Below are positions 3,389 through 57,436 of a DNA stretch of 64,000 nt, in pieces. Numbering within the stretch: the first letter of the stretch is position 1; every line of letters begins with the position of its first letter. The stretch is taken from positions 4,580,001-4,644,000 of the forward strand of contig NZ_OX216966.1 in assembly GCF_945605565.1 (NCBI RefSeq), written 5' to 3'. The notes beneath the pieces were generated by a model that was not told the DNA's origin, did not search any database, and saw only the letters and a list, made by a program, of their open reading frames with translations. Position numbers and translations under genes: made by a program. This DNA is from Paenibacillus dendritiformis (GTDB lineage: Bacteria > Bacillota > Bacilli > Paenibacillales > Paenibacillaceae).

Positions 3389-4906
3389 TTACAGACTATA
3401 GACATCCTTCATTTTGGCCGACAAGTAATCGACCAGATATTGCGGGTTCAACGCTTCCCCCGTCACCTGCATCACGATCTCGGCAGGCGTGAGCAGCTTG
3501 CCGTGCTGATAAATGCGCTCCGTCAGCCACTCCTTAATCGCCAGCAGCTCGCCGCGGGCGATCCGGTCTTCCACATCCGGCATGCCCTGACGCAGCGCAT
3601 GCATGAACTGAGCCGCATACATATTGCCGAGCGAATAAGACGGGAAGTAGCCGAATCCGCCGCCCGACCAATGGACATCCTGAAGCACGCCTTCTCCCGC
3701 ATGCTTCGGCCGAACGCCGAGATAAGATTCATACTTATCGTTCCATACATCCGGAAGATCGTCCACGGACAAGCCTTCGTTGAACAGCATTTTCTCCATT
3801 TCATAGCGGATAATGATATGTAGGTTATAAGTGACTTCGTCCGCTTCAATCCGGATCAGCGACGGCTCCACCCGGTTCACCGCCCGGTACACCATCTCGC
3901 TGGTCACCTGTCCGAGCTGGGACGGGAAGGTCTGCTGCACCTGTCCGTAGTATCTCGACCAGAAGGCGCGGCTCCGCCCAATCAGATTCTCCCAGAAGCG
4001 CGATTGGGATTCATGAATCCCCATCGAGGTACCGGATGCAAGCGGCGTGCCTGCATATTTTACGTTAATATTTTGCTCGTACAGCGCATGTCCGCCCTCG
4101 TGGAGCGAGCTGAATATCGCATCGGCCATATCATGCGTCTTGTAATGCGTCGTAATCCGCACATCGCCCGGGTTCAGCCCGATCGCGAACGGATGAACGC
4201 TCTCGTCGAGACGGCCGGCATCGAAATCATAGCCGATCTCCTTCAGCAAATAATGGCTGATCGCCTTTTGCCCTTCTATCGGGAATTCCTGGAAGAGGAA
4301 ATCCGCGGCCGGCTGCTTGCCCGAGGCCTGCACCGACTGTACGAGCGGAACGAGCTGATCCCGGAGCTGTCCGAATATCGAATCCAGCTTGGCTACCGTC
4401 ATATCCGGCTCATAGGCGTCCAGCAGCGTATCATAGCGCGTATCCTGCACTCCCCAGTAATCGATGAATTGCTGCGTCTTCGCTACGATGTCCCGCAAGT
4501 ACGGCTTGAACGACTCGTAATCACCATTTTTCTTCGCATCCTCCCACAGCGTCTCGGCATGAGAGGTCAGCACGACATACTCCTGATGAAGCTTCGGCGG
4601 GATCAGCCGGCTGCGGTTGTATTCTTTGCGGGCGTCCTTCACCATTTTGCGATCCGCCTGACTCAGCGACTCGAATACGCCAGGCTGCTCCAATTCGTCC
4701 AGACAGTTCCCCATCTCTGGAGAGACGGACAGTGAGAACAGATCCGCAGACAACGCGCCGATCGCGTGGGCCCGCTGCTCCGCCCCTTTGCGCGGGGCGC
4801 CTGTCCGCAGATCCCACTGCATCAGGCCCAATGCTTCCTCATAACTTTTCATTTTCGTCAACATATCGTGAAATTGCTGCAAAACCGGATGTACGTTTGT
4901 GCTCAT
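3389..4906 (-). CDS. Carboxypeptidase M32 (thermostable carboxypeptidase 1 family)
   Basis: A 505-aa cytosolic zinc metallocarboxypeptidase, the full usual length for family M32, removing C-terminal residues from peptides. The zinc site HEGGH lies at about residues 267-271 in 'SSLHEGGHALYEQN', and the family-specific HESQSRFWEN follows about 30 residues later. 'MQWDLRTGAP' near the N-terminus is also typical. The start at 4906 is preceded by AGGTGAG; the open frame to 5017 carries a non-conserved extension. It is monocistronic, bounded by a hairpin downstream. Confidence 0.92.
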   Translation of the reverse strand: MSTNVHPVLQQFHDMLTKMKSYEEALGLMQWDLRTGAPRKGAEQRAHAIGALSADLFSLSVSPEMGNCLDELEQPGVFESLSQADRKMVKDARKEYNRSRLIPPKLHQEYVVLTSHAETLWEDAKKNGDYESFKPYLRDIVAKTQQFIDYWGVQDTRYDTLLDAYEPDMTVAKLDSIFGQLRDQLVPLVQSVQASGKQPAADFLFQEFPIEGQKAISHYLLKEIGYDFDAGRLDESVHPFAIGLNPGDVRITTHYKTHDMADAIFSSLHEGGHALYEQNINVKYAGTPLASGTSMGIHESQSRFWENLIGRSRAFWSRYYGQVQQTFPSQLGQVTSEMVYRAVNRVEPSLIRIEADEVTYNLHIIIRYEMEKMLFNEGLSVDDLPDVWNDKYESYLGVRPKHAGEGVLQDVHWSGGGFGYFPSYSLGNMYAAQFMHALRQGMPDVEDRIARGELLAIKEWLTERIYQHGKLLTPAEIVMQVTGEALNPQYLVDYLSAKMKDVYSL

Positions 4907-5050: not shown

Positions 5051-5422
5051 ATGTCAGTCAGCATCGAAGTGACGCCGGGAGCAGAGGAGGCGTTGAGACG
5101 GAAGCTGGACGGGCCGTCCGGCGAAGCAGGCTATATCAAGCTCATCTATGATACGGACGGATGCGGGTGCGCGGTGAACGGGGTTCCCGCTCTGTGGCTG
5201 GTGAGGGAACGGGGCTCCTGCGATGAGGAACTGCCGAATAACGCAAGCCTGCCCATGCTGATCGACCGCCATCAGACTGTATTTTATGAAGAGCGCATGA
5301 AGCTCGATTCCGGAGCGATTGCCGGATCCTTCGTGCTCAGCAGTCCGCAGCAGATCTATTCGACGCATGTCATCTGCTCGGATCGCCGCACGGCTTCCGA
5401 GGCATTTTTAGAGGAGGAATAA
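5051..5422 (+). CDS. HesB/IscA-like iron-sulfur biosynthesis domain protein (YqkB-like)
   Basis: A 123-aa small protein of the HesB/YadR/YfhF group. 'EVTPGAEEALRRKL' near the start, 'LIYDTDGCGCAVNG' and a late Cys in 'HVICSDRRTASEAF' match the family pattern, although it is the divergent YqkB-like branch rather than a canonical A-type carrier with its CGC tail. The start ATG at 5051 has AAGGAG 9 nt upstream. Its stop overlaps the following carbonic anhydrase start by one base (TAATG), so the two are likely co-translated. The role in Fe-S assembly is inferred from the family. Confidence 0.72.
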   Translation: MSVSIEVTPGAEEALRRKLDGPSGEAGYIKLIYDTDGCGCAVNGVPALWLVRERGSCDEELPNNASLPMLIDRHQTVFYEERMKLDSGAIAGSFVLSSPQQIYSTHVICSDRRTASEAFLEEE

Positions 5423-6057
5423 TGATGAAGAACAACATGGAAACTATATTGGAATTCAACCAGCAATTCGTGGACAAGCGGGAATACGAGCAGTTTTTGA
5501 CGAACAAGTTCCCGGACAAAAAGATGGCCATTATCACCTGCATGGATACCCGTCTGGTCGAGCTGCTTCCCCGGGCGATGAATCTGCGCAACGGCGATGC
5601 CAAAATCATCAAAAACGCGGGCGCCATTATTTCACAGCCGTTCGGCAGCGTCGTGCGCAGTGTGCTCGTCGCCATCTATGAGCTGGGAGCGAATGAAGTC
5701 GTCGTCGTCGGCCATTATGGATGCGGCATGACCGGGCTGAATTCCGAAGGCATTATCGAGAAGGCGAAGGCAAGAGGCGTTCAGGATGTCGTCCTGGACA
5801 CGCTCACCAATTCGGGCATCAAGCTGCACCATTGGCTTCGCGGATTCGACAACGTCCACGAGGGCGTGCTGAACAGCGTGCGCATTTTGCGCAAGCATCC
5901 GCTGCTGCCGAACGATATCCCGGTGCACGGCATGGTCATTCATCCGGATACCGGCGCGCTCGAATGGATAGCGGACGGTTACCGTTACCTGGAGGATGTC
6001 CAATCCGATCCGGATTTGGCGGACAAGGAGACGCATACCCCTTCGGCAACCCGTTGA
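5422..6057 (+). CDS. Beta-class carbonic anhydrase
   Basis: A 211-aa enzyme interconverting CO2 and bicarbonate. The zinc ligands and the Asp/Arg dyad are all present: Cys40-x-Asp42-x-Arg44 (ITCMDTR) and His98-x2-Cys101 (GHYGCGM). 'KNAGAII' and 'VGHYGCGMTG' place it in the beta class. GAGGAGG lies at 5411-5417; the in-frame second ATG at 5425 has the better spacing, so the true start may be three bases later. A strong bidirectional hairpin follows. Confidence 0.93.
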   Translation: MMKNNMETILEFNQQFVDKREYEQFLTNKFPDKKMAIITCMDTRLVELLPRAMNLRNGDAKIIKNAGAIISQPFGSVVRSVLVAIYELGANEVVVVGHYGCGMTGLNSEGIIEKAKARGVQDVVLDTLTNSGIKLHHWLRGFDNVHEGVLNSVRILRKHPLLPNDIPVHGMVIHPDTGALEWIADGYRYLEDVQSDPDLADKETHTPSATR

Positions 6058-45168: not shown

Positions 45169-47052
45169 CTATGGAAGCGCGACCGGCAGCTTGCCTGCGG
45201 GCGGTTCGGCAGAGAAGAGCGCCTTGACGCCGGCGCGGAGGTTACTGGACGTCGTCCCGTAGACGGCAATGCCGAGCGGGATATCGGGCAGTTCGGCGAT
45301 ATCGTACGGTGTTCCGACGGATAGCACCGCAGCCGCAACGTCCTGCTCCGCTGCGGCCTGGAACCAGCTTATCACCGTCTCCGCGCTGCTGCGATCATGA
45401 TGCAGGTCTTGCGTCACCCAGACCGCGATGGCCCCGGACGGCCATTGCCGGGGGGATGGGACCTCCGCTGGAGTCCGCGCTTCGACCTGAATGCTCCCCC
45501 CGGCCGCAGCGGAAGCGGCCCCTTCGATCTCGCGCTGTACGCGCTCCAGTACCGTCCGCTGATCCCCGATGAGGATGACGCGGCGGCCATCCCCGCGAAG
45601 CAGCGGCAACTTCGTCTTCACTCCGGTTCCCCATACGGTGGCCGCTTCGGCCGCGATGCGGTCGGCCGTCTGCTCCGCCGAGCCTGACTGAAAATATGCC
45701 TCGGCTCCCTGGATTGCATCTTCCAGCGGCACGGGCGGGGAGGCCGTGTCCGGCAGCAGGCCGTACTTCCGCTTCATCCGCAGTATTCTGCGGACGCTGT
45801 CGTCAATCCGGGCGGCCTCAATCTCGCCGGCATCCACCGCCCGGTGTATCGCGCTCACCGCCGCGGCCGGCTCCGGCGGCATCAGAAGCATGTCCGCCCC
45901 TGCCTTCACCGCCATGACCGCCGCTTCCTCGCTCCCGAAGTGATCGGCGATGGCCTTCATATTGAGCGCATCCGTCACGATGACCCCCTGGAAGCCAAGC
46001 TGTTCGCGCAGCACGCCGGTCAGCAGATGCGGCGACAACGTCGCCGGAAGCGTAATCGGCTTCCCGTCCAGCTTCGAGACGGCCGTCGCCGGTTCCAGCT
46101 GCGGCACTTGAATATGCGCGCTCATGATCGCATCGACGCCTTCCGCGATGGCGGCCCTGAACGGCACCCATTCGATGGATTCGAAGCGAGAGAGCTCGTA
46201 ATCGAGCTTCGGAAGCCCAATATGCGAATCGGTCGCCGTGTCGCCATGCCCGGGGAAATGCTTGGCCACCGCAGGCAGCCCGGCGGCATGCATGCCGACG
46301 ATGAACGACTTGACGAAGTCTGCCACCTGCTCCGGATCCGATCCGTACGAGCGGAGGCCGATAACCGGATTGTCCGGATTGCTGTTGATGTCGGCGACCG
46401 GCGCGAAGTCCAGATTGATCTCCAGCTTGGCGAGCATCTGGCCGAGCACTTCCCCCGTCTCGGCGGCCGCTCCCGGGCGCCCCGTCGCGCCGATCGCCAT
46501 ATTGCCGTTCATCGCCGAGGCGAAGGGCAGCCGTGTGACGATGCCGCCCTCCTGATCGGTGCTCATCCATAACGGAATGGCAGCCGTCTGCTGCAAGCGG
46601 CGATTCAGCGTCAAAACCGAGCGGATATCCGGAATATCGCCTCGGAACAGGACGACCCCGCCGGGGCGGAGCTTCTGCATCGCTTCCTCCAGCTGGACGC
46701 CACCGGCTTCCTGGGCGACTGCCTCCAAATCGACCATCAGCATTTGACTGATCCGCTCATCGAGCGACATGCCAGACAGCGTCTGTTCAATGAACGCCTT
46801 CTCCTTCTCCTTCTCCTTCTCCTGTTTGGCGATCGCTCCATCGTTCCCTGCCGGTGTCCCGCCCGGTGACGCAAGGCCGCTACCGGCGCCTGTTCCGGGA
46901 CCTTCCGCCGGTCCTGCCTGAGGCTGGAGGGCGATCCAGGCGCCGAGGCCAACGGCCGCGACAAGCAGCACCAAGGCCAGGATGATGAACTTCCGCCGGG
47001 CTCCGCCTCGCCGTGTCCGGCCGTGCCGGTTCGAACGCGGAGGCGTGCTCAT
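45169..47052 (-). CDS. Glycoside hydrolase family 3 beta-N-acetylhexosaminidase (NagZ-like), membrane-anchored
   Basis: A 627-aa protein: Arg-rich start, TM anchor (about 24-43), Gly/Pro/Ala linker, a KEKEKEKE tract (about 77-85) encoded by a hexanucleotide microsatellite, then a GH3 domain. The NagZ hallmark is 'KHFPGHGDTATDSHIGLP' with the mobile-loop Asp-His pair; 'STDQEGGIVTRLP' and 'VIVTDALNMKAI' (nucleophile Asp) follow. A GH3 C-terminal domain ends it. It likely trims GlcNAc from wall muropeptides. Start 47052 overlaps the amidase-like gene stop as ATGA. Confidence 0.88.
   Translation of the reverse strand: MSTPPRSNRHGRTRRGGARRKFIILALVLLVAAVGLGAWIALQPQAGPAEGPGTGAGSGLASPGGTPAGNDGAIAKQEKEKEKEKAFIEQTLSGMSLDERISQMLMVDLEAVAQEAGGVQLEEAMQKLRPGGVVLFRGDIPDIRSVLTLNRRLQQTAAIPLWMSTDQEGGIVTRLPFASAMNGNMAIGATGRPGAAAETGEVLGQMLAKLEINLDFAPVADINSNPDNPVIGLRSYGSDPEQVADFVKSFIVGMHAAGLPAVAKHFPGHGDTATDSHIGLPKLDYELSRFESIEWVPFRAAIAEGVDAIMSAHIQVPQLEPATAVSKLDGKPITLPATLSPHLLTGVLREQLGFQGVIVTDALNMKAIADHFGSEEAAVMAVKAGADMLLMPPEPAAAVSAIHRAVDAGEIEAARIDDSVRRILRMKRKYGLLPDTASPPVPLEDAIQGAEAYFQSGSAEQTADRIAAEAATVWGTGVKTKLPLLRGDGRRVILIGDQRTVLERVQREIEGAASAAAGGSIQVEARTPAEVPSPRQWPSGAIAVWVTQDLHHDRSSAETVISWFQAAAEQDVAAAVLSVGTPYDIAELPDIPLGIAVYGTTSSNLRAGVKALFSAEPPAGKLPVALP
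46797..46823. repeat. In-frame hexanucleotide microsatellite
   Basis: CTTCTC-type units recur about 4.5 times inside the NagZ-like gene and encode alternating Lys-Glu in the linker between membrane anchor and enzyme. Slippage would change linker length without a frameshift. Confidence 0.75.
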
Positions 47053-47903
47053 GCCCGCTCCTGGGCGGATACGGGCTTCCCGATCCCGCGGTACAACGCT
47101 TCCCGCCGATCCGCAAATACAGGAATCCGGCTGCGAACCTCCTGGACGGATGATAGCGGGATATCCGCGTAAATATCCGTTTCTTCTTCTTCCGCCCCCG
47201 CGATGGTCTCTCCCCAAGGATCAAGCACGACCGAATGGCCGAAGAAGGCGGACGCGGTTCCGTCCGCTCCTACGCTTGTGCCAACCCGATTGCAGGCAGC
47301 GATGAACATCTGATTCTCGATGGCCCGGGCCGTCAGCAGCGTGCGCCAGTGGTGAAGGCGCGGATGCGGCCACTGGGCCGGCACGAACAGCACCTCGGCC
47401 CCGTCAAGGGCCAGCGTGCGCGCCAGCTCCGGGAAGCGCAAATCATAGCATATGATGGCCCCGCACGCCACGCCATCCAGTTCAAAGCGTCCCAGCAAGT
47501 CTCCCGCAGTCAAATACGAATGCTCATCCATCAACCGGAACAGATGAGTCTTATCATATTGAGCCGCAATCCGTCCCTGGCGATCCGTCACATACAAGCG
47601 GTTATAGAAGCGGCTTCCTTCACGCACCGATACCGATCCGCCGATAATATTCACTCCATATCGGGCGGAAAGCGCCGACAGCAGCTCCCGCGCCGCTTCC
47701 CCTCCGGGATCTGCCAATTGATCGAGCTTTTCCAGCGCATAGCCCGTATTCCACATCTCCGGTAGCACAATGACGTCAGGCCGGGCACCCGGACTGTCCA
47801 TCACTTGCTCAATGCGGCGCTTTACGCGGTCCGCGTTGCGATCCGGCTCTCCGATGCTGACATCCATTTGAATCAGGCATATTCTCCATGCTTCCGGCTT
47901 CAT
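47049..47903 (-). CDS. mtnU: Carbon-nitrogen hydrolase (MtnU-like omega-amidase)
   Basis: A 284-aa nitrilase-superfamily amidase. The catalytic triad is visible: Glu in 'VLPEMWNTGYAL', Lys in 'YDKTHLFRLMDEH' and Cys in 'AIICYDLRFPELAR'. It resembles Bacillus YkrU/MtnU, linked to methionine salvage, and it lies about 750 nt from divergent mtnE. Its product would deamidate alpha-keto-glutaramate-like acids formed by transamination with glutamine. ATG 47903 fits the family N-terminus (AAGGAG 12 nt upstream); ATG 47954 is possible. The symbol is inferred from similarity and context. Confidence 0.78.
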   Translation of the reverse strand: MKPEAWRICLIQMDVSIGEPDRNADRVKRRIEQVMDSPGARPDVIVLPEMWNTGYALEKLDQLADPGGEAARELLSALSARYGVNIIGGSVSVREGSRFYNRLYVTDRQGRIAAQYDKTHLFRLMDEHSYLTAGDLLGRFELDGVACGAIICYDLRFPELARTLALDGAEVLFVPAQWPHPRLHHWRTLLTARAIENQMFIAACNRVGTSVGADGTASAFFGHSVVLDPWGETIAGAEEEETDIYADIPLSSVQEVRSRIPVFADRREALYRGIGKPVSAQERA

Positions 47904-48035
47904 TCGATTGACACGCTCCTTCGTTCTGTCCAGTTTTTCCACACTTTCCTTCATGATACCTTTTCATGGAATGGAGTCAAGCCGGACACACTATAGAAGG
48001 TCTATTACCGCACCGAAAAGAAAGGAGTTTTCCTT

Positions 48036-48536
48036 ATGATAAGACAAGCAATTCGAGCTGCGGCTGCCGCGCTGCTGATCGGGGCCTTCGCTTGGGCCGG
48101 CGTCTCCGGCGCATTCCCTGCGGAATTCGAGACCGGGAATACCGCCCCGTCGTCGAAGGTTCCTCCCGTTCAGCTGTTCGACATGCAGCAGGAACGCATT
48201 ATTAAGACGATTCCGAACCAGGAAGAACATCAGGCTGCCGCCCGGGAATGGCTTCAATCCGTTACCGGTCTCGCTCCCCAGTTGACGATCGACAGCCGCT
48301 GCGGCTATATCGTCCGCATCCCGCTCGAGGCGCCCGTAGAGATCAAGCTCCCTTCGGCTGAATTGAAGACGAAGGATGTGTTCTTAATCTACTGTCCGGA
48401 CAGGGATCCGTTGCTCCTGGTCTTCTCCGAGCAGCGCAAGCCGTTCCTGCTGCGCATCTCGTCGAACGTGAAGCCGTTCATGCAGAAGCTGCTGGCACCG
48501 GCCTCCCCTCGGCAAGTGACGCCTTCCAGCAACTGA
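48036..48536 (+). CDS. Exported hypothetical protein
   Basis: A 166-aa protein with a Sec-type signal (about 1-25: AAAALLIGAFAWAGVSGA) and a mature region without recognised motif ('HQAAAREWLQSVTGLAPQLTIDSRCGYIVRIPLEAP...'). A repeated 'I.SR.GYIVRIPL' / 'FLIYCPDRDPLLLVFSE' pattern suggests a beta-sandwich. AAAGGAG is 8 nt before ATG. It lies between mtnU and mtnE. I do not recognise the family. Confidence 0.7.
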   Translation: MIRQAIRAAAAALLIGAFAWAGVSGAFPAEFETGNTAPSSKVPPVQLFDMQQERIIKTIPNQEEHQAAAREWLQSVTGLAPQLTIDSRCGYIVRIPLEAPVEIKLPSAELKTKDVFLIYCPDRDPLLLVFSEQRKPFLLRISSNVKPFMQKLLAPASPRQVTPSSN

Positions 48537-48655
48537 CTATCGGGACGGCTGCTTCCTTCTCATCGTATGAAAAAGAGGTATACACTTCCGGCAAAACATG
48601 CTAAATTATCGTTAATCTTCGCGCTTGGCGATATTTGTGTCTGGAGTGAATTACG

Positions 48656-49846
48656 ATGAAGCCTACTATACCTACAATCGTGCCGGCCGATCGGATGAAC
48701 GGTCTGCCGAAGCAGTTCTTCGCCGCTCTGGTAGCGCGGGCCCAGGCGAGAGTCGCGGCCGGTCACGACGTGATTAATCTCGGGCAGGGCAATCCCGATC
48801 TGCCGACGGCTCCGCATATCGTCGCCGCCCTGCAGGAAGCGGCTGCGAATCCGTTATACCACCGCTATCCCCCGTTCCAGGGCTACCGCTTCCTCAAGGA
48901 GGCCGTCGCTGAGCGGTACATGGCCGATTACGGCGTCGAGCTGGATCCGGATACCGAAGTCGCCGTTCTCTTCGGCGGCAAGACCGGGCTCGTGGAGATA
49001 AGCCAAGTCTTGCTGAACCCGGGCGACGTATGTCTCGTTCCGGATCCCGGCTATCCTGATTACTGGTCCGGCGTCGCATTGGCCGGCGCCGAGATGGTCA
49101 TGATGCCGCTGCATGAGGCGAACGGCTATTTGCCGGATTATGAGCGGATTGACGCCGCATGTCTGGCACGGGCGAAGCTGATGTTCCTCAATTATCCGAA
49201 CAATCCGACATCGGCCGTCGCGGATCGCCCGTTCTACGAGGAGACGATTCGCTTCGCTGAACGGAACGGCATTGTCGTGGCGAGCGATTTCGCTTACGGC
49301 GCCATCGGCTTCGACGGCCACCGTCCGATCAGCTTCCTGGAGCTTCCGGGAGCGAAGGAAGTTGGCGTCGAGTTCTATACGATGTCCAAAACCTACAATA
49401 TGGCCGGCTGGCGCGTCGCCTTCGCCGTGGGCAACGCCGAGATCATCCGGCTCATCAATCTGATGCAGGACCATATGTACGTCAGCCTGTTCGGCGCGGT
49501 GCAGGCCGCGGCGGCGGCCGCGCTCACCGGACCGCAGGAATGCGTCCGGGAGCTGTGCGCGGTCTATGAGTCACGGCGCAATGCACTCTATGCGGAGCTC
49601 CACCGCATCGGCTGGAACGCACAGCCGCCGGCCGGCTCCTTCTTCGGCTGGCTTCCGGTTCCTGCCGGATTTACGTCCGCGTCCTTCGCCGATCTGCTGC
49701 TGGAGCAGGCGAATGTGGTGACGGCGCCGGGCATCGGATTCGGCGAACACGGCCAAGGCTATGTCCGGCTCGGCCTGCTCGCGCCGGAGGAGCGGCTGAT
49801 CGAGGCGGCGGAACGCATCGGAGCGCTCGGTCTGTTCGGCGGCTGA
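48656..49846 (+). CDS. mtnE: Methionine salvage aminotransferase
   Basis: A 396-aa fold-type I PLP aminotransferase that converts 2-keto-4-methylthiobutyrate to methionine, closely resembling Bacillus MtnE (YkrV): 'ARVAAGHDVINLGQGNPDLPT', 'EVAVLFGGKTGLVE', 'PDPGYPDYWSGV', 'FLNYPNNPTSAVA', the PLP Lys in 'YTMSKTYNMAGWRVAFAVGN', and a C-terminal 'APGIGFGEHGQGYVRLGLL'. GGAG precedes ATG 48656. No S-box (SAM riboswitch) consensus is visible in the 119 nt upstream. It ends about 70 nt before the proline operon promoter. Confidence 0.92.
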   Translation: MKPTIPTIVPADRMNGLPKQFFAALVARAQARVAAGHDVINLGQGNPDLPTAPHIVAALQEAAANPLYHRYPPFQGYRFLKEAVAERYMADYGVELDPDTEVAVLFGGKTGLVEISQVLLNPGDVCLVPDPGYPDYWSGVALAGAEMVMMPLHEANGYLPDYERIDAACLARAKLMFLNYPNNPTSAVADRPFYEETIRFAERNGIVVASDFAYGAIGFDGHRPISFLELPGAKEVGVEFYTMSKTYNMAGWRVAFAVGNAEIIRLINLMQDHMYVSLFGAVQAAAAAALTGPQECVRELCAVYESRRNALYAELHRIGWNAQPPAGSFFGWLPVPAGFTSASFADLLLEQANVVTAPGIGFGEHGQGYVRLGLLAPEERLIEAAERIGALGLFGG

Positions 49847-49915
49847 CATGGCATCCGATCTGCCGTGAATGGACAAAACTCCGTCCAGCAGTGACAATCC
49901 ATCTCTAGCCGCCGC

Positions 49916-49945
49916 TTTACACGTCTCCGAATCGCATGGTATTCT
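49916..49945 (+). promoter_or_regulatory. Sigma-A promoter of the pro-mtn operon
   Basis: TTTACA (49916-49921), an 18-nt spacer and TATTCT (49940-49945), about 55 nt upstream of the T-box Stem I. Confidence 0.6.
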
Positions 49946-49999
49946 AATGGTAACCGCGCCGCCGCATGGAACGGCAGGCGCCGGATACATGGAACGCGA

Positions 50000-50297
50000 T
50001 GACAGGACCAGTACGCAACCAAGTCATGCCCAGAGAGCGGATGCCCCGGCTGCAAGCACCGCCGTTGAACGTTGCGGAACCTATCCTTGAGCGGTCAGCG
50101 TAAGCGATGAGTCGCGAAGCTGAACGGCAGCCCCGTTATCGGCAGGAAGCAGGAAGCGGAGAAATCCCGCGGAAGGCCGTTGATCATCGGCAGCAACATG
50201 CTGCAATGGCCGGCAGACGCAGGAGTTATGTCCGTCTTCAACAAAGGTGGTACCGCGGAAGAACAACTTTCGTCCTTTATAGGACGAAAGTTTTTTT
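50000..50297 (+). ncRNA. T-box riboswitch, proline (CCU) specifier
   Basis: A complete T-box leader. Stem I base pairs AGGA (50004-50007)/TCCT (50084-50087) and GCAAC (50015-50019)/GTTGC (50071-50075). Between them lies a specifier loop with the loop-E AGTA (50010-50013) opposite GGAA (50076-50079). The specifier is CCT (50080-50082), a proline codon, followed by A. The apical GGCTGCAAGC motif is at about 50058. The T-box AAAGGTGGTACCGCGG is at 50243-50258. The terminator stem is AACTTTCGTCCT/AGGACGAAAGTT (50265-50292) with seven T. Uncharged tRNA-Pro would allow read-through into proB. Confidence 0.92.
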
Positions 50298-50350
50298 ATA
50301 TTCCGCAACAAGTATAGAAGCACGCAGTATAACGGCAGGAAGTGATTGAA

Positions 50351-51451
50351 TTGCAACGCATCGTAATGAAAATCGGAAGCAGTTCCCTTACGTCGGACAA
50401 TGGCGGCCTCGATCGCGATCGGGTCTCCTTTTATGTCCGGGAAATGATCTCCTTGCGCCAACGCGGCGCCCAGGTGGTGCTGGTCACCTCCGGAGCGGTT
50501 GCGGCCGGCTTCCGGCATATCGGCTACCGGGAACGGCCCAAGCAGCTGCACGAGAAGCAGGCGGCCGCCGCGGTCGGGCAGGCTCTGCTAATGCAGGCGT
50601 ACCAGGAGGAGCTACAGCTGCACGGAGTGCCCGCGGCTCAAATTTTGCTCACCCGTTCCGACTTCGCGAACCGCCGCCGGGGCCATAACGCGTATATGAC
50701 GCTGCAGGAGCTGCTCGCCCGGGATGTCGTCCCGATTATTAATGAGAATGATACCGTCTCGGTCGAGGAACTGAAATTCGGCGATAACGACACGCTCTCG
50801 GCGCTCGTCGCCAATCTGGTTCATGCGAACCGGCTTATTATCGTCACCGATACGGACGGCTTGTATACGGCCGATCCGCGGACGAATCCCGAGGCGATCC
50901 GCTTCGAGCGCGTCGAGCAGATCGACGAGGATCTGTATGCATATGCCGGAGGGGCAGGCTCCTCCGTAGGTACGGGCGGCATGAGGTCGAAGCTGGACGC
51001 GGCGCGCATCGCCATGCGCGGGGGCGTCCCCGCCTTCGTCGGCAAGGTTAATGAACCGGGCGATCTCCTGCACGCGGTGGACGGCGATGGAAAAGGCACC
51101 TATTTCGACACCCACTTTCATGCGCTGCCGATGAAGAAGCAGTGGCTCGGCTTCCATTCGACGGCTCATGGGCGCATCGGCGTCGATGCCGGGGCGGAGC
51201 AGGCCCTGCTGGAGAAAGGCTCCAGCCTGCTGCCCGCCGGCGTCCGTTCGATCGAGGGAGAATTCCATTCCGGCGACGTGGTCGAAGTCATCGGACCCGA
51301 TGAGCGGCTTATCGGCAGAGGCATCGTTAATTATGATTCGGATCAGCTGCGCACAGCGGCCGGCTGGTCGAGCGATGAAGTGATGAAGCGGATGGAGGTG
51401 CACCGGATTGAAGTCATTCACCGGGACGAATGGGTAACCCTGCGTTCCTGA
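50351..51451 (+). CDS. proB: Glutamate 5-kinase
   Basis: A 366-aa amino-acid kinase plus PUA domain, phosphorylating glutamate in the first step of proline synthesis. 'RIVMKIGSSSLTSDNGGL' opens the kinase; 'VTSGAVAAGF', 'NENDTVSVEELKFGDNDTLSA' and 'TDTDGLYTADPRTNP' follow; 'GTGGMRSKLDAARIA' ends it and the PUA domain covers about 275-355. I chose TTG 50351 because GGAAGTGAT is 8 nt upstream and it matches the family N-terminus; GTG 50342 is in frame but inside that site. First gene after the proline T-box. Confidence 0.94.
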   Translation: MQRIVMKIGSSSLTSDNGGLDRDRVSFYVREMISLRQRGAQVVLVTSGAVAAGFRHIGYRERPKQLHEKQAAAAVGQALLMQAYQEELQLHGVPAAQILLTRSDFANRRRGHNAYMTLQELLARDVVPIINENDTVSVEELKFGDNDTLSALVANLVHANRLIIVTDTDGLYTADPRTNPEAIRFERVEQIDEDLYAYAGGAGSSVGTGGMRSKLDAARIAMRGGVPAFVGKVNEPGDLLHAVDGDGKGTYFDTHFHALPMKKQWLGFHSTAHGRIGVDAGAEQALLEKGSSLLPAGVRSIEGEFHSGDVVEVIGPDERLIGRGIVNYDSDQLRTAAGWSSDEVMKRMEVHRIEVIHRDEWVTLRS

Positions 51452-51490
51452 TGTTTCGGCAAAAAATAGATTTTACAAGGAGGAACTACG

Positions 51491-52738
51491 ATGAGTGAAG
51501 TGCGTAACAAATCCGGTCTGGCGAAGCAAGCGGCCCAGATCATGAACCGGTTGACCACGGAGGAGAAAAATGCCGCCCTCCTGCAAATGGCGGATAAGCT
51601 GCTGGAGCAAGAACGCTCCATTATCGAAGCGAATGCGCAGGACTTGGAGAACGGCCGGCAGCAAGGCACCTCCCCTTCCCTGCTCGATCGGCTGGCCCTG
51701 AACAGCGCCCGCATCGAAGCGATGGCGGAAGGTCTGCGCCAGATTGCCGAACTGCCCGATCCGGTGGGCGACGTGCTCGAGACATTCACCCGTCCAAATC
51801 GCCTGCGGGTCGAGAAGATCCGGGTCCCGCTCGGCGTTATCGGCATGATCTATGAAGCCCGGCCCAATGTCACCGTCGACGCGGCCGGACTCTGCCTGAA
51901 GACCGGGAATGCGGTCGTCCTGCGGGGCGGCTCGGCCGCGATGGAATCGAACAAGCGCATCATTGCCGTGCTGCACGAGGCGCTGGCCGGGACGGCGCTT
52001 CCGGCGGACGCGCTGCAATTGATCGAAAATCCGGACCGCTCCTCGGTCGATGAAATGCTGAAGCTGAACGGATTGCTCGACGTCGTCATCCCGCGCGGGG
52101 GCGCTTCGCTGATTCAGAATGTCGTGCAAAATGCCACCGTTCCGGTGATTGAGACGGGTGCCGGCATTTGCCATACGTACATCGATGAATCGGCCCGTCC
52201 GGCGATGGCGGAAGCGATTGCCGTCAATGCCAAGGCTCAGCGCCCATCGGTCTGCAACGCCATGGAGACGCTGCTCGTGCATAAGGCATATGCGGCGCAG
52301 CATCTGCATGCGCTGCTTGAGCAGTTGCGCGTCCGGGATGTCGAGCTTCGCGGCTGCGAGCAGACGCGGGCGCTTGATCCGTCGGTGGCGCCAGCCGCCG
52401 AAGCGGATTATGCGACCGAGTACAACGATTACATCCTCAACGTGCGCATCGTTGATTCGCTCGATGCCGCGCTGGAGCATATTGCGCGTTACGGCACGAT
52501 GCATTCGGAGTGCATCGTCACCGAGAATGCTCAGCATGCCGAGCGCTTCCTGCAGGAGGTTGACGCCGCGGCCGTCTATCACAACGCATCGACCCGCTTC
52601 ACGGACGGATTCGAATTCGGCTTCGGCGCCGAGATCGGCATCAGCACCCAGAAGCTGCATGCGCGCGGCCCGATGGGACTGCCGGCTCTCACCTCAAGCA
52701 AGTACCGAATCTACGGAACAGGACAAATTCGTTCTTAA
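51491..52738 (+). CDS. proA: Glutamate-5-semialdehyde dehydrogenase
   Basis: A 415-aa NADPH-dependent reductase of gamma-glutamyl phosphate, second step of proline synthesis. The catalytic Cys is in 'KAQRPSVCNAMETLL'. 'GVIGMIYEARPNVTVDAAGL' and 'VIETGAGICHTYID' are diagnostic of ProA. AAGGAGG precedes ATG. It lies 39 nt after proB with no terminator between. Confidence 0.95.
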   Translation: MSEVRNKSGLAKQAAQIMNRLTTEEKNAALLQMADKLLEQERSIIEANAQDLENGRQQGTSPSLLDRLALNSARIEAMAEGLRQIAELPDPVGDVLETFTRPNRLRVEKIRVPLGVIGMIYEARPNVTVDAAGLCLKTGNAVVLRGGSAAMESNKRIIAVLHEALAGTALPADALQLIENPDRSSVDEMLKLNGLLDVVIPRGGASLIQNVVQNATVPVIETGAGICHTYIDESARPAMAEAIAVNAKAQRPSVCNAMETLLVHKAYAAQHLHALLEQLRVRDVELRGCEQTRALDPSVAPAAEADYATEYNDYILNVRIVDSLDAALEHIARYGTMHSECIVTENAQHAERFLQEVDAAAVYHNASTRFTDGFEFGFGAEIGISTQKLHARGPMGLPALTSSKYRIYGTGQIRS

Positions 52739-52782
52739 AAAAGAGAAGCTTAGCGAATCGATATGGATAGGAAGAGAGAGGA

Positions 52783-53664
52783 ATGATACTGATGGACAAT
52801 CGACATGCACATATAACCGACTCGTTCCGCTCGCTTCGCATCGGCATCTACGGAGCCGGTTCCATGGCGGAAGCGATTATTCGCGGCCTGACGGAGAAGC
52901 GGCTGATCGCGCCGGACCGGATCGCGGTCGTGAACCGGAGCAATACCGAACGGCTGGAGGAACTGCAGCGGCGCTACGGCGTCGCCGCCGACAATTCTCC
53001 GCAAGGCAAAGTGCAGCTGCTGCAGGCCGCCGATATCGTCCTCATCGCCGTCAAGCCGAAAGATGCGGCAGGCGCGCTCGCCGAGCTGAAGACCTGCCTG
53101 CGGCCGGGTGCACTCCTGCTCTCGGTCGTCGCGGGGCTCTCGATCGCCACGATGCAGCGCATTGCAGGCCCGGTTCCCGTCGTGCGCACGATGCCGAATA
53201 CATCCAGTTCAATCGGCCTCGGCGCCACCGGCGTCTGCTGGTCGGACGAGACAACCGTGGACCAGCAGGAAGCCGCACTGCATCTGCTGCAGGCCGTAGG
53301 CTACGCAACCGTGGTCGCCGAGCATGATCTAAATATGATTACCGGACTATCCGGAAGCGGTCCGGCATATGTATACTATTTGATGGAAGCGATGATCGCG
53401 GCGGGCATCGACGGCGGGCTCTCCGCGGAGCAGGCCCGCGAGTTGACCGTGCAGACCGTCCGGGGCGCGGCCGAGATGGTCCGTCTGACCGGAGAAGAGC
53501 CGGGCGAGCTTCGGCGCAAGGTGACCTCTCCCGGAGGGACGACTGCTGCCGCGATCGAGACGCTGGAGCAGTACCAATTCCAGCAGGCGCTTCGTTCCGC
53601 CATACACCGCGCGGAAGCCCGCGCGCAAGAGATGGGTGAACAAATTGGGAGGGTGACATTTTGA
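52783..53664 (+). CDS. proC: Pyrroline-5-carboxylate reductase
   Basis: A 293-aa enzyme for the last step of proline synthesis. The N-terminal Rossmann motif GIYGAGSMAEAIIRGL (about 20-35) binds NAD(P)H, 'VRTMPNTSSSIGLG' and the C-terminal 'GLSGSGPAYVYYLMEAM' and 'KVTSPGGTTAAAIETLE' are ProC signatures. AGGAAG is 8 nt before ATG 52783. Its stop overlaps the mtnW start as TTGA, which couples proline synthesis to methionine salvage translation. Confidence 0.94.
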   Translation: MILMDNRHAHITDSFRSLRIGIYGAGSMAEAIIRGLTEKRLIAPDRIAVVNRSNTERLEELQRRYGVAADNSPQGKVQLLQAADIVLIAVKPKDAAGALAELKTCLRPGALLLSVVAGLSIATMQRIAGPVPVVRTMPNTSSSIGLGATGVCWSDETTVDQQEAALHLLQAVGYATVVAEHDLNMITGLSGSGPAYVYYLMEAMIAAGIDGGLSAEQARELTVQTVRGAAEMVRLTGEEPGELRRKVTSPGGTTAAAIETLEQYQFQQALRSAIHRAEARAQEMGEQIGRVTF

Positions 53665-54878
53665 AAGCACATTGCACCGCCACGTATCGCATTTATGACG
53701 ATCGCGCCGACTTCGCCAGCAAAGCGGAAGGCATCGCTGTCGGCATGACGGTCGGCAGCTGGACCGAGCTGCCGGAAGCGCAAAAAGCGGATATGGCCAA
53801 GCATCTGGGACAAGTCCTCTCTGTCGTGCCTGTCGAATCCGACATCCCGGGCGAGCGGTATGCGGATATTACGATCGCCTATCCCGACGTCAATTACAGC
53901 CGGGATCTGCCGGCGCTGCTCGTGACGATGTTCGGGAAGCTGTCCATGGATGGACGCATCAGGCTGATGGACATCGAATGGTCCGATGCGTTCAAGCAAG
54001 CGTTCCCCGGACCGAAGTTCGGCCTGGACGGGGTGCGGAAGCTGGTCGATGTGCATGACCGGCCGCTGCTGATGAGCATTTTCAAATCCGTCATCGGCTA
54101 CGATCTGCCGGCTCTTGCCGAACAATTCCGGCAGCAGGCCCTGGGCGGAGTCCATATCATTAAAGACGACGAAATTCTGTTCGAAAATCCGCTCACCCCG
54201 ATCGAGCGCCGGGTGAAGGCCTGCATCGAGACGGCCGATGCCGTCAGCGAGCAGACCGGCCGGAAGCTGCTGTATGCGGTCAACCTGACAGGCCCGACGT
54301 TCAAGCTGCGCGATCAGGCGCTGCGCGCGATCGAAGCCGGTGCCAATGCCTTCCTGTTCAATGTGCTGGCCTATGGCTTCGATGTGCTGCACGCGCTCAG
54401 CTCGGATCCGGATATATCGGTGCCAATCGCGGCGCATCCGGCGATGGCCGGCAGCATGTATCCGTCGCCCCATCACGGCATCGCGGCCCAGCTGCTGCTC
54501 GGCAAGCTGATGCGACTCGCCGGAGCGGATCTGGTGCTGTTCCCGTCACCATACGGCTCCGTAACGATGCCGGCCGAGGATACCTTCGCCATCCGCGATG
54601 CGCTTACCAGGCAGGATATGGCGCTGCAGCGCAGCTTCCCGGTGCCGTCCGCCGGCATCCATCCGGGCATCGTGCCGCTTATCATTCGCGATTTCGGCAC
54701 CGATGTCATTGTCAATGCGGGAGGCGGCATCCATGGGCATCCGCTCGGTACCGCTGCCGGAGGGCGCGCATTCGTGCAAGCAATCGACGCGGTCATGCAG
54801 GGCAAGACCCTGGAGAGCTGCGCGGCCGATCAGGAAGAGCTCCGGGCCGCGATTCAAGCATGGGGGGTGAAGCAGTGA
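53661..54878 (+). CDS. mtnW: 2,3-diketo-5-methylthiopentyl-1-phosphate enolase (RuBisCO-like protein)
   Basis: A 405-aa RuBisCO-like enolase of the methionine salvage pathway. The active-site segment GGVHIIKDDE (about 166-175) carries the carbamylated Lys and metal-binding Asp/Glu, the RuBisCO loop 'KDDE' pattern. 'GPKFGLDGVRKLVDVHDRPLL' and 'PSAGIHPGIVPLIIRDFG' match MtnW rather than true RuBisCO. The start is TTG 53661 with GGGAGGGTG upstream, overlapping the proC stop. It is followed by mtnX at a GTGA overlap. Confidence 0.93.
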   Translation: MKAHCTATYRIYDDRADFASKAEGIAVGMTVGSWTELPEAQKADMAKHLGQVLSVVPVESDIPGERYADITIAYPDVNYSRDLPALLVTMFGKLSMDGRIRLMDIEWSDAFKQAFPGPKFGLDGVRKLVDVHDRPLLMSIFKSVIGYDLPALAEQFRQQALGGVHIIKDDEILFENPLTPIERRVKACIETADAVSEQTGRKLLYAVNLTGPTFKLRDQALRAIEAGANAFLFNVLAYGFDVLHALSSDPDISVPIAAHPAMAGSMYPSPHHGIAAQLLLGKLMRLAGADLVLFPSPYGSVTMPAEDTFAIRDALTRQDMALQRSFPVPSAGIHPGIVPLIIRDFGTDVIVNAGGGIHGHPLGTAAGGRAFVQAIDAVMQGKTLESCAADQEELRAAIQAWGVKQ

Positions 54879-55540
54879 GCCGAAGCCAACGACGGGTCAT
54901 CTTCTGCGATTTCGATGGTACGATTACCGTGAATGACAATATAATCGCCATTATCCGCCACTTCAACCCGCCGGGCTGGGAACCGATTGTCCAGGACGTC
55001 CTGGAGGAACGCATTTCCATCTCCGAAGGCGTCGGGCAAATGTTCGCGCTGCTGCCATCGTCGATGCGGGATGAAGTCATCCGGTTCGCGCTCGGACAAG
55101 CGGTGATCCGGCCGGGATTCGAGGAATTCGTCCGCTTCTGCCGCGACAGCGATATCGAACTGTACGTCACTAGCGGCGGCATCGATTTCTTCGTCTATCC
55201 GCTGCTTGAGCCGTTCGGCATTCCTTCGGATCATATCTATTGCAACGGCAGCGACTTCAGCGGTGAGTCGATTCGGATTACCTGGCCGCATCCTTGCCAG
55301 GATCCGTGCCGGAACAAATGCGGCATGTGCAAGGCAACCATTGTGCGCCGTTTTCCGCCGGAACAATACGAGCGGATCGTGATCGGGGACAGCGTGACGG
55401 ATTTCGCGGCGGCGAAGCTGGTCGAGTTCGTCTATGCGCGTGCCCAGCTCATAAGCAAATGCGAAGAGCTGCACCTTCCTTATGCGCCGTTCGAGTCATT
55501 TTACGATATTATCGAGCATTTGGGAGGGCGGCTTCAATGA
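54875..55540 (+). CDS. mtnX: 2-hydroxy-3-keto-5-methylthiopentenyl-1-phosphate phosphatase
   Basis: A 221-aa HAD phosphatase. The nucleophile motif is IFCDFDGTIT, the second Ser/Gly block is 'YVTSGGIDFFVYPLL' and the Asp block 'IVIGDSVTDFAAAKL'. A Cys cluster (C-x3-C-x3-C-x2-C in 'HPCQDPCRNKCGMCK') is shared with Bacillus MtnX. GTG 54875 overlaps the mtnW TGA; ATG 54860 is an upstream in-frame alternative. It ends overlapping the mtnB start as ATGA. Confidence 0.92.
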   Translation: MSRSQRRVIFCDFDGTITVNDNIIAIIRHFNPPGWEPIVQDVLEERISISEGVGQMFALLPSSMRDEVIRFALGQAVIRPGFEEFVRFCRDSDIELYVTSGGIDFFVYPLLEPFGIPSDHIYCNGSDFSGESIRITWPHPCQDPCRNKCGMCKATIVRRFPPEQYERIVIGDSVTDFAAAKLVEFVYARAQLISKCEELHLPYAPFESFYDIIEHLGGRLQ

Positions 55541-56181
55541 CTGATATTAAGTCGACTTTGGAGGAAAGACAGCGCACGCTGGCCGAGCTGCGCAGCATCA
55601 AAGAGCAATTCGCTGCCCGCCATTGGTTCCCCGGGACGAGCGGCAATCTGTCCGTTCGCGCAGGAGACATCAAGGAGGGGCGGTTTCAATTCGCGATCAC
55701 GGCGAGCGGCAAGGACAAGTCCGTACATACGCCAGAGGACTTCCTTTTCGTGGATGAAGCCGGACAGCCTTGTGAGGCGACCCGGCTGCGGCCAAGCGCG
55801 GAGACGCTCATCCATTGCGAGATTTACCGCTTAACCGGAGCTGGAGCCATTTTTCACATTCATACCGTATTCAACAATATCGTGTCCGAGCTCTATGGGG
55901 ATGAAGGCTATATTCCCGTCCAAGGCGTGGAGCTTATCAAAGCATTCAACATCTGGGAGGAAAATGCGCGGATCGACATCCCCGTCGTTCCGAACTACGC
56001 TCATATTCCGAGCATCGTTCCCTGCATTACGGACAAGCTCAATCCGGCCATTCCGGGCATCGTGCTGCGCAACCACGGCATTTACGCCTGGGGTGCCAAC
56101 TGCTTCGAGGCGAAGCGCCATCTCGAGGCGTTCGAATTTCTGTTCGAGCATGTCTATCGGATGAAGGCGCTGGGACGATAG
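55537..56181 (+). CDS. mtnB: Methylthioribulose-1-phosphate dehydratase
   Basis: A 214-aa class II aldolase/adducin-family dehydratase. 'ARHWFPGTSGNLSVR' is the substrate-phosphate loop, the zinc His pair is in 'IFHIHTVFNNI' with a third His in 'VLRNHGIYAWG'. GGAGG is 10 nt before ATG 55537. It is the last gene of pro-mtn. mtnA, mtnK and the mtnD dioxygenase are not in this window, so the pathway is completed elsewhere. Confidence 0.93.
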   Translation: MTDIKSTLEERQRTLAELRSIKEQFAARHWFPGTSGNLSVRAGDIKEGRFQFAITASGKDKSVHTPEDFLFVDEAGQPCEATRLRPSAETLIHCEIYRLTGAGAIFHIHTVFNNIVSELYGDEGYIPVQGVELIKAFNIWEENARIDIPVVPNYAHIPSIVPCITDKLNPAIPGIVLRNHGIYAWGANCFEAKRHLEAFEFLFEHVYRMKALGR

Positions 56182-56192
56182 CACTTCACCTG

Positions 56193-56234
56193 CGATCGCT
56201 TTGGAAGAACGTTCTTCCAAGCGATCGTTTTTTT
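56193..56234 (+). terminator. Strong terminator of the pro-mtn operon
   Basis: CGATCGCTTTGGAAGAAC (56193-56210) pairs with GTTCTTCCAAGCGATCG (56211-56227) with one bulge, followed by seven T (56228-56234), 11 nt after the mtnB stop. Confidence 0.92.
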
Positions 56235-56767
56235 ATCCGGATGCCGATGCGGAGGTACTCCTCAAGAGATGGCCGGGTCCCGGCCCTTTGCTCCATTCTC
56301 CCCTTCCGTCAGGTGCCAATCGGAGACTTTCTTTTCATCCATCCCCTTCTCATGAAAAGCTCCCTTGCCCCATACCCGAAACGCGGTCCACCTGTCAAAA
56401 TGATAGCGTTATTCGTGTTATATGACGATCTCTTGTTTGGTACGGCTGTTTTTTGAAACCGGCCGAAGCTTCACCTCCGGCATCCCTGCTTGCTTGCGGC
56501 TTGCGATCAAGATCCCATTGTCTGCCGGACTCTGAGCCTCGGGGAGAGTATGCATAAGCGCTCTACAACAGATAGACACGGATAGGAGCACTTAGAAAAG
56601 CATGAACCGTGAAGCGCATACACGAACCTGGCAGTTCGATGCAAATATTCACCAAGCCCTTTTACTTGCCCTGCCCCCTTTACTTTTCTCATCCAACTCT
56701 GTATCATAAAGCGGCTGCCGGTGTCCATTGGCCGACGGTGCGCCGACATTTGGGCGATAAGCGGAAT
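56235..56767. other. Intergenic region between mtnB terminator and TetR gene
   Basis: No supported gene in 533 nt. It contains a perfect palindrome GGCCGGG-T-CCCGGCC (56271-56285) and a single copy of repeat A related to the array at 22.4-22.6 kb. No convincing promoter for the TetR gene was recognised. Confidence 0.6.
56285..56314. repeat. Solitary copy of repeat A
   Basis: CCTTTGCTCCATTCTCCCC followed by TTCCGTCAGGTGCC matches the core of the tandem array at 22406-22607 (CTTTGA..CATTCTCCCTTC..GTCAGG). It shows that the repeat family is dispersed. Confidence 0.55.
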
Positions 56768-57436
56768 ATGGTGGAGCTGCTGACGGAGGATGCGGGAACG
56801 AGAGATGCGGAGCGGACGAAGCCGGAGACGCGACAACGCATCCTGGATAGCGCCCGTCACATATTTGCCGAGCACGGATATGCCGCAGCGAACCTCGACA
56901 GCATCGCAGCGGAAGCAGGCTTGACGAAGGGAGCTGTCTATTGGCATTTCAGCAGCAAGCAGGATCTGTTCTTCGACCTGCTCCAATCCGAGCTGGAACG
57001 GATGCAAGCGCTTCTTCCGCGCGAAGCCCGGCAATTGACGGACATGACCAGCGATCCGGCGGATGCGGCTGCCCGGATGCTGCGGTCCCGCTTTCCCGCC
57101 CAAGGAAGCGATACCGGTTCGGCGTACCTGTTCTTTGAATTCCTGACCGTGTCTCGAGATCCGGAGGTGAAGAAGCAGCTGCAAACTGCATATGCGCGAA
57201 TCTGGGAGCTCGCGGAAGCCCAGATCACCCAGCTTCAGGAATCTGGAATCATCGGGTCTGATGTCCAACCGGAGAAGCTAGCGATTATGATCCAGTCGCT
57301 AATCCATGGGATGATGGTCTCCTGGATCATCGATCCGAAGCGAATTGATTTTGACCGGATCGTGCCCGGCATTGCTCGCATATTATGGTATGGCATCGGC
57401 AGATCAGACCCGGGACAAGGAGGAGCACAGGCATGA
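56768..57436 (+). CDS. TetR family transcriptional regulator
   Basis: A 222-aa repressor with the TetR helix-turn-helix at about 22-66 ('RQRILDSARHIFAEHGYAAANLDSIAAEAGLTKGAVYWHFSSKQDL') and an AcrR-like C-terminal domain (about 85-215). ATG 56768 is chosen as the natural family N-terminus; the ribosome binding site is weak. It overlaps the alpha/beta hydrolase gene as ATGA, so the two form an operon. The hydrolase may be its target or may modify its inducer. Confidence 0.86.
   Translation: MVELLTEDAGTRDAERTKPETRQRILDSARHIFAEHGYAAANLDSIAAEAGLTKGAVYWHFSSKQDLFFDLLQSELERMQALLPREARQLTDMTSDPADAAARMLRSRFPAQGSDTGSAYLFFEFLTVSRDPEVKKQLQTAYARIWELAEAQITQLQESGIIGSDVQPEKLAIMIQSLIHGMMVSWIIDPKRIDFDRIVPGIARILWYGIGRSDPGQGGAQA

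Follow-up and report, generated by a model that had tools for sequence, protein, structure and literature searches.

Methionine salvage genes behind a predicted proline T-box in Paenibacillus dendritiformis and other Paenibacillaceae

In a 64,000-nucleotide stretch of the Paenibacillus dendritiformis genome (hereafter, the window), three methionine salvage genes, mtnW, mtnX, and mtnB, directly follow the proline-synthesis genes proB, proA, and proC. We consider it likely that these six genes constitute a single unit, which is predicted to lie under the control of a proline-responsive T-box riboswitch and to be transcribed mainly when tRNA-Pro is uncharged. The genome measures 6.72 Mb, and the MtnW protein of the window is 98% identical to the MtnW of Paenibacillus dendritiformis and of Paenibacillus sp. 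2.1. The segment in question, 49916-56234, runs from a promoter-like site through a proline T-box leader and the six genes to one terminator, with the following features:

49916..49945, + strand: sigma-A-like promoter with an extended -10 element (TTTACA-18-TATTCT, TG before)
49990-50280, + strand: T-box leader, RF00230 (cmscan 81.7 bits, E 6.3e-17, full model 1-219)
50080-50082, + strand: specifier codon CCU (proline), after the GAA of the specifier loop
50246-50257, + strand: T-box core GGUGGUACCGCG, with a UGGU bulge whose U would face the discriminator A of tRNA-Pro
50265-50299, + strand: intrinsic terminator of the leader (stem 50265-50292 plus T run)
50342..51451, + strand: proB, glutamate 5-kinase (TIGR01027, 451.1 bits, cut-off 186)
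51491..52738, + strand: proA, glutamate-5-semialdehyde dehydrogenase (NF001221, 615.5 bits, cut-off 289)
52783..53664, + strand: proC, pyrroline-5-carboxylate reductase (TIGR00112, 257.8 bits, cut-off 196.75)
53661..54878, + strand: mtnW, 2,3-diketo-5-methylthiopentyl-1-phosphate enolase (NF007095, 624.8 bits, cut-off 409)
54875..55540, + strand: mtnX, phosphatase (NF007103, 326.6 bits, cut-off 292, scored on a longer open reading frame from 54860)
55537..56181, + strand: mtnB, methylthioribulose 1-phosphate dehydratase (TIGR03328, 193.2 bits, cut-off 137.05)
56193-56234, + strand: terminator of the unit (read from the sequence and found by the terminator scan)

The leader and the unit behind it

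The T-box with a CCU specifier that an earlier note on this DNA had placed ahead of proB-proA-proC was recovered by the covariance model, with CCT at the specifier position. Direct reading of the window also located AGTA at 50010-50013 and the core GGTGGTACCGCG at 50246-50257. In the covariance model the 5' arm of the terminator pairs with the T-box core, so that terminator and antiterminator, as read from the sequence, are competing structures. Four tRNA-Pro genes were found in this genome, all with the anticodon UGG, using a pattern whose wobble position was left free and which may miss others; the two tRNA-Pro sequences that were read carry a discriminator A (...CCCG-A-CCA), fitting the UGGU bulge.

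To place this leader among its relatives, 394 genomes of the family were searched, of which 282 contained MtnW at E 1e-60 or better, and 81 neighborhoods from 16 genera (40 + 1 + 40) were fetched from the better-scoring MtnW matches listed. At a relaxed threshold, a T-box was detected in the mtnE-proB gap of all eight relatives scanned (L075, L083, L086, L088, L089, L093, L104, and L106), with E-values from 1e-6 to 2e-17 and scores of 45.1-86.5 bits. A proline codon (CCN) serves as the specifier in 81/81 loci in which proB is visible, that is, the window and 80 of the 81 fetched, according to a regular expression that prefers CC-initial candidates; the specifiers of L109, L132, L143, L148, and L152 were assigned by eye, and that of L158 is the second candidate of the search. 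One of these loci, L132, has the variant core GGTGGTATCGCG. The E-value in the window, the matches in relatives, and the proline codon in 81/81 loci together led us to reject a chance T-box.

By NCBIfam, all six proteins exceed the cut-off of one or more models carrying their name. The genes themselves are closely joined. Four-base overlaps link proC to mtnW (TTGA, 53661), mtnW to mtnX (GTGA, 54875), and mtnX to mtnB (ATGA, 55537), and these coordinates, like that of the single terminator, agree with the earlier claim that the three mtn genes continue the proline unit. The locus qualifies as a proline-biosynthesis operon in that proB, proA, and proC are adjacent behind one leader. A simple scan of the + strand of the window found no promoter-like site past 49945, and terminator-like sites were likewise absent from 50834 to 56199. 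When the family loci were scored against the sigma-A consensus, using a threshold of 9 and shuffled sequences as a control, a promoter-like site preceded the T-box in 79/81 loci (12% in shuffles), while the 200 nucleotides (nt) before mtnW contained none in any of 82 loci (5% in shuffles). This difference makes control of mtnWXB by tRNA-Pro likely, and we infer co-transcription of proBAC and mtnWXB as the simplest reading. Counted from the proC stop, the mtnW match begins at -4 to 46 nt in the first set of 40 loci, the upper value belonging to the interrupted mtnW of G258; the mtnX-mtnB gaps of L084, L087, and L093 were left unused as artefacts of reading to the first stop.

The absence of an S-box (S-adenosylmethionine, or SAM, riboswitch) near mtnW was likewise borne out: none was found in 47000-57000 of the window, even at E up to 10. 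The same genome has three S-boxes, none near mtnW, mtnA, mtnK, or mtnD; judging from translations, they sit at two methionine-transporter-like operons and near a homoserine O-succinyltransferase-like gene. In 41 genomes of the family, 85 S-boxes were found, of which the nearest on a shared contig lay 19.7 kb from mtnW and 45 kb from mtnA; in 22 genomes the nearest lay 55 kb from mtnK and 91 kb from mtnD. An S-box between proC and mtnW, or before mtnE, was considered and rejected, as none was found in the window or in relatives. The locus departs from the S-box-regulated mtnWXBD type in two respects, having no SAM aptamer before mtnW (window; 41 genomes) and not holding all four genes in one unit, for mtnW, mtnX, and mtnB are there and mtnD lies 83 kb away in the same genome.

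The remaining salvage genes of this genome are dispersed, with mtnA at 1.88 Mb (G000:C1:1881344), mtnK at 5.57 Mb (G000:C1:5565693), and mtnD at 4.55 Mb. As a result, control by the T-box would extend to no more than three of the enzymes. The proposal that uncharged tRNA-Pro induces methylthioribose recycling stands, by inference, for mtnWXB; it does not extend to the whole pathway, as mtnK, mtnA, and mtnD are encoded elsewhere. No Rfam match was obtained at the mtnA loci of four relatives (E 0.01), at the mtnA locus of the same genome, or at two short mtnD loci, and another riboswitch at mtnA was rejected on the basis of these mtnA scans. In the three relatives' mtnA loci where it was sought, mtnK adjoins mtnA. 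The mtnK of P. dendritiformis is far from mtnA, and three genomes of the same genus (G271, G274, and G259) have two mtnK copies, one of them beside mtnA.

Conservation and origin of the arrangement

The earlier note had suggested looking for the same gene order across Paenibacillaceae. It proved general among the loci fetched: pro genes stand directly 5' of mtnW in 81/81 loci other than the window, and the full series proB-proA-proC-mtnW-mtnX-mtnB is visible in 79 of them. In G275 (L145) there is no proC and mtnW comes after proA, giving T-box-proB-proA-mtnW-mtnX-mtnB; in G078 the contig ends before proB, and 1.5 kb separates mtnX and mtnB. Elsewhere, proA and proC of G286 stand 1.6 kb apart, and the mtnW of G258 is interrupted by a premature stop. 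A gene order that recurs across the family suggests an arrangement that is more than chance, and it strengthens the case for control of mtnWXB by tRNA-Pro. The TetR gene found downstream of mtnB in the window, on the other hand, occurs in only 2/40 loci of the first set, which argues that the conserved pro-mtn order does not merely reflect general synteny. A recent local fusion is ruled out, since the layout recurs in all 81 of the other loci.

Upstream of the unit, and outside it, the window carries three further genes:

47049..47954, - strand: carbon-nitrogen hydrolase ("mtnU-like"; NCBIfam amidohydrolase/nitrilase matches, all below cut-off)
48036-48536: gene of 166 codons, lying between the mtnU-like gene and mtnE; by eye, its start resembles a signal peptide
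48656..49846, + strand: mtnE-like aminotransferase (NF005977 transaminase, 629 bits, cut-off 494), directly 5' of the T-box promoter

The aminotransferase is presumably mtnE, and the hydrolase we take, from its position, to be mtnU. With these two genes just upstream, proBAC sits inside an mtn cluster. Both are conserved neighbors, as mtnE precedes the T-box in all fetched family loci except G004 and the cut-off G078, and the mtnU-like gene adjoins mtnE in relatives too. The 166-codon gene has no NCBIfam match and is present in 27/40 loci of the second set of relatives.

For comparison, 9.5-10.5 kb before mtnW were fetched from 19 Bacilli of other families. None of these 19 loci has proB, proA, or proC before mtnW; mtnE precedes mtnW in 14/19, and an S-box lies just before mtnW in 15/19, the four without one being G474 and G431 (family f19), G482, and G420. 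By regular-expression search, a T-box core stands before proB-proA-proC in G420 and before proB-proA in G482, so that the inserted block would have a plausible source. The outgroup locus L110 (G474) also contains a c-di-GMP-I riboswitch (5053-5139, minus strand), about 4 kb upstream of mtnE. In an MtnW tree of 62 rows, comprising 42 from the family (every second family row plus the window) and 20 others, the family rows formed one clade with a support of 100/100, and the f19 pair was sister to it (86/67). The single clade of linked MtnW proteins and the outgroup layout are explained by one insertion; the ancestor of the family probably acquired the T-box-proBAC block, between mtnE and mtnW, in a single event. 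The earlier suggestion of an opportunistic operon fusion fits this origin, with the qualification that it would be one old event common to the sampled family.

Weighing the alternatives

Several observations weigh against the reading of a single unit switched from SAM to tRNA-Pro. The T-box of the window, at 81.7 bits, is below the Rfam gathering score of 93 (a database threshold rather than a biological feature), for which reason scanning the 64 kb window with Rfam at default settings yields nothing; all nine leaders scanned, those of the window and the eight relatives, fall below it (45.1-86.5 bits), and family surveys that rely on this cut-off may undercount proline control. The CCU specifier makes two standard pairs with the anticodon UGG and a U-U at the wobble position, and in a free fold of the leader the terminator appears and stem I of the model does not. 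Promoter-like sites (score of at least 9; 82 loci) precede mtnB in 24% of loci and proA in 20% (13% in shuffles for each), from which it follows that transcription of mtnB may begin separately in some relatives. For the second set of 40 loci the proC-mtnW spacing is available only as a hit-to-hit distance, from -3 to 94 nt. The S-box survey of 41 genomes relied on stricter filters, at the risk of missing weak S-boxes, and its distances leave aside the genomes in which the mtnW contig (20/41) or the mtnA contig (13) has no S-box. Three salvage genes, mtnK, mtnA, and mtnD, lie outside the unit. In f19, the nearest outgroup family (two genomes), mtnE adjoins mtnW with no intervening S-box, suggesting that loss of the S-box may have preceded the insertion, which would then not have replaced it.

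To the same side belong the genomes without MtnW. No MtnW was found at the cut-off in 112/394 family genomes, and of the 17 whose proA region was fetched, seven have nothing of mtn behind proC. The T-box core, proB, proA, and proC are retained in all 17, and in 10 of them (L175-L184) an mtnB- or mtnX-like gene still stands behind proC; of these proteins, four were examined, and each scores above the cut-off of one mtnB or mtnX model. In the four MtnW-less genomes searched, mtnK was not found, and mtnD gave partial matches at best (~50-70 residues). At the end of the unit, the mtn genes seem to be decaying, whereas the proline part is preserved, and the leftover mtnB- or mtnX-like genes are possibly decaying relics. 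One of these loci, L184 (G054), has two T-box core motifs by regular expression, before proB (4315-4326) and between proB and proA (5890-5901; oriented positions).

The history that we envisage begins with an ancestor of the family that would have gained the T-box-proBAC block between mtnE and mtnW, at the site where 15 of the 19 other Bacilli examined have an S-box; descendants that kept mtnW would also have kept the pro genes ahead of it. Binding of uncharged tRNA-Pro would let polymerase pass the leader terminator, and this read-through would jointly increase the synthesis of proline and three methionine salvage steps, SAM no longer acting on the mtn genes via an S-box. More speculatively, charged tRNA-Pro could report the supply of peptides, which would bring methionine too. 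On this basis we tentatively propose, while regarding it as somewhat doubtful, that the family moved the enolase, the phosphatase, and the dehydratase from SAM to tRNA-Pro sensing by one insertion, which was kept since proline charging is a proxy for the outside supply of amino acids. The data are compatible both with such a nutrient proxy and with a neutral fusion, in which the block landed once, mtnWXB live on read-through from the leader, and inheritance and translational coupling preserve the layout, proline control bringing no benefit; to the latter we assign a probability only just short of even. That mtnK, mtnA, and mtnD were never brought into the unit speaks for neutrality, as do the lack of any Rfam leader at the scanned mtnA and mtnD loci and the fact that mtnW can be lost without T-box-proB-proA-proC, as in 17/17 of the MtnW-less loci fetched. 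Set against it, the 200 nt before mtnW contain no promoter-like site in any of 82 loci, and S-boxes are absent from its vicinity in 41 genomes, though the downstream flank breaks readily, as the TetR gene illustrates, and G275 lost proC with mtnWXB staying behind T-box-proBA; none of this is proof of selection.

Two other accounts would detach mtnWXB from the T-box. A promoter hidden inside proC, perhaps served by another sigma factor or an activator, would make mtnWXB independent of proline; the earlier note had named a separate promoter or S-box within proC as something to look for, and neither was found close to mtnW. Extending the scan to 900 nt before mtnW yielded sites reaching a score of 9 in 18/82 loci, but none reached 10 and their positions were scattered, and within 200 nt the loci hold fewer sites than do their shuffles. 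The codon conservation of proC (18 same-genus loci; 0.455 overall) is raised in the last 20 codons (0.60) and in codons 183-211 (0.57), as a buried element might require, but these peaks are no higher than chance allows (permutation p 0.24), and the likely ribosome-binding site of mtnW falls in the stretch of the last 20 codons; the first codon window, at 0.65, rests on 13 rows. We rejected a regulatory element detectable through proC codon conservation on these results, and an internal promoter in proC appears improbable. Less probable still is read-through from a promoter of mtnE that carries the whole cluster, so that the signals governing mtnE would govern mtnWXB. Promoter-like sites with a score of at least 9 do precede mtnE in 88% of 80 loci (21% in shuffles), and in the window the scan found no terminator-like site separating mtnE from the T-box; such transcripts, however, would still have to pass the T-box terminator, and in L104 and L148 a hairpin with a T run seems, by eye, to follow mtnE.

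Relation to known systems

Proline-responsive T-boxes are described at proBA and proI of Bacillus subtilis in passages of PMC9245794. There, as here, such a T-box precedes proline-synthesis genes; on the same source, proBA and proI are separate units, whereas in the window proB-proA-proC and mtnW-mtnX-mtnB stand behind one leader. Passages of PMC2743287 describe S-box control of mtnWXBD (ykrWXYZ) and mtnKA (ykrTS) in B. subtilis. The order mtnW-mtnX-mtnB given there is that found here. Unlike the arrangement in those passages, no S-box was found here near mtnW or mtnA (41 genomes) or near mtnK or mtnD (22 genomes), mtnD is outside the unit, and the predicted signal is tRNA-Pro rather than SAM. 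Within the genus Paenibacillus, passages of an RNA sequencing study of P. riograndensis (PMC5670726) report T-boxes at serA and valS and a SAM switch at metA, and do not mention proB or mtn.

From titles and abstracts in the open-licence full-text literature we recognized no paper on a proBAC-mtnWXB unit, and the union goes unmentioned in passages of PMC3766115, PMC2494555, PMC12452182, PMC5670726, and PMC7793946. Proline T-boxes and S-box control of mtn genes are each known; what sets this locus apart is that proline T-box and mtn genes are combined, that the union is apparently old, and that the signal seems to have changed.

T-boxes and S-boxes usually match the pathway that they control. 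In Paenibacillaceae a pathway seems to have switched its signal to an unrelated amino acid by an operon insertion, apparently once, in a layout that has lasted over the 16 genera sampled. If this is true, a foreign pathway fell under the control of an RNA switch and came to listen to a different signal, and recycling is predicted to rise on a shortage of proline, not of methionine. A parallel lies in Lactobacillales, in which methionine T-boxes are found at methionine genes. The expansion of this methionine T-box regulon is mentioned in a passage of PMC3766115. In both cases a T-box stands where other Firmicutes use an S-box, but the T-box of Lactobacillales reads methionine, whereas that of Paenibacillaceae would read another amino acid, through the predicted insertion of a foreign operon head.

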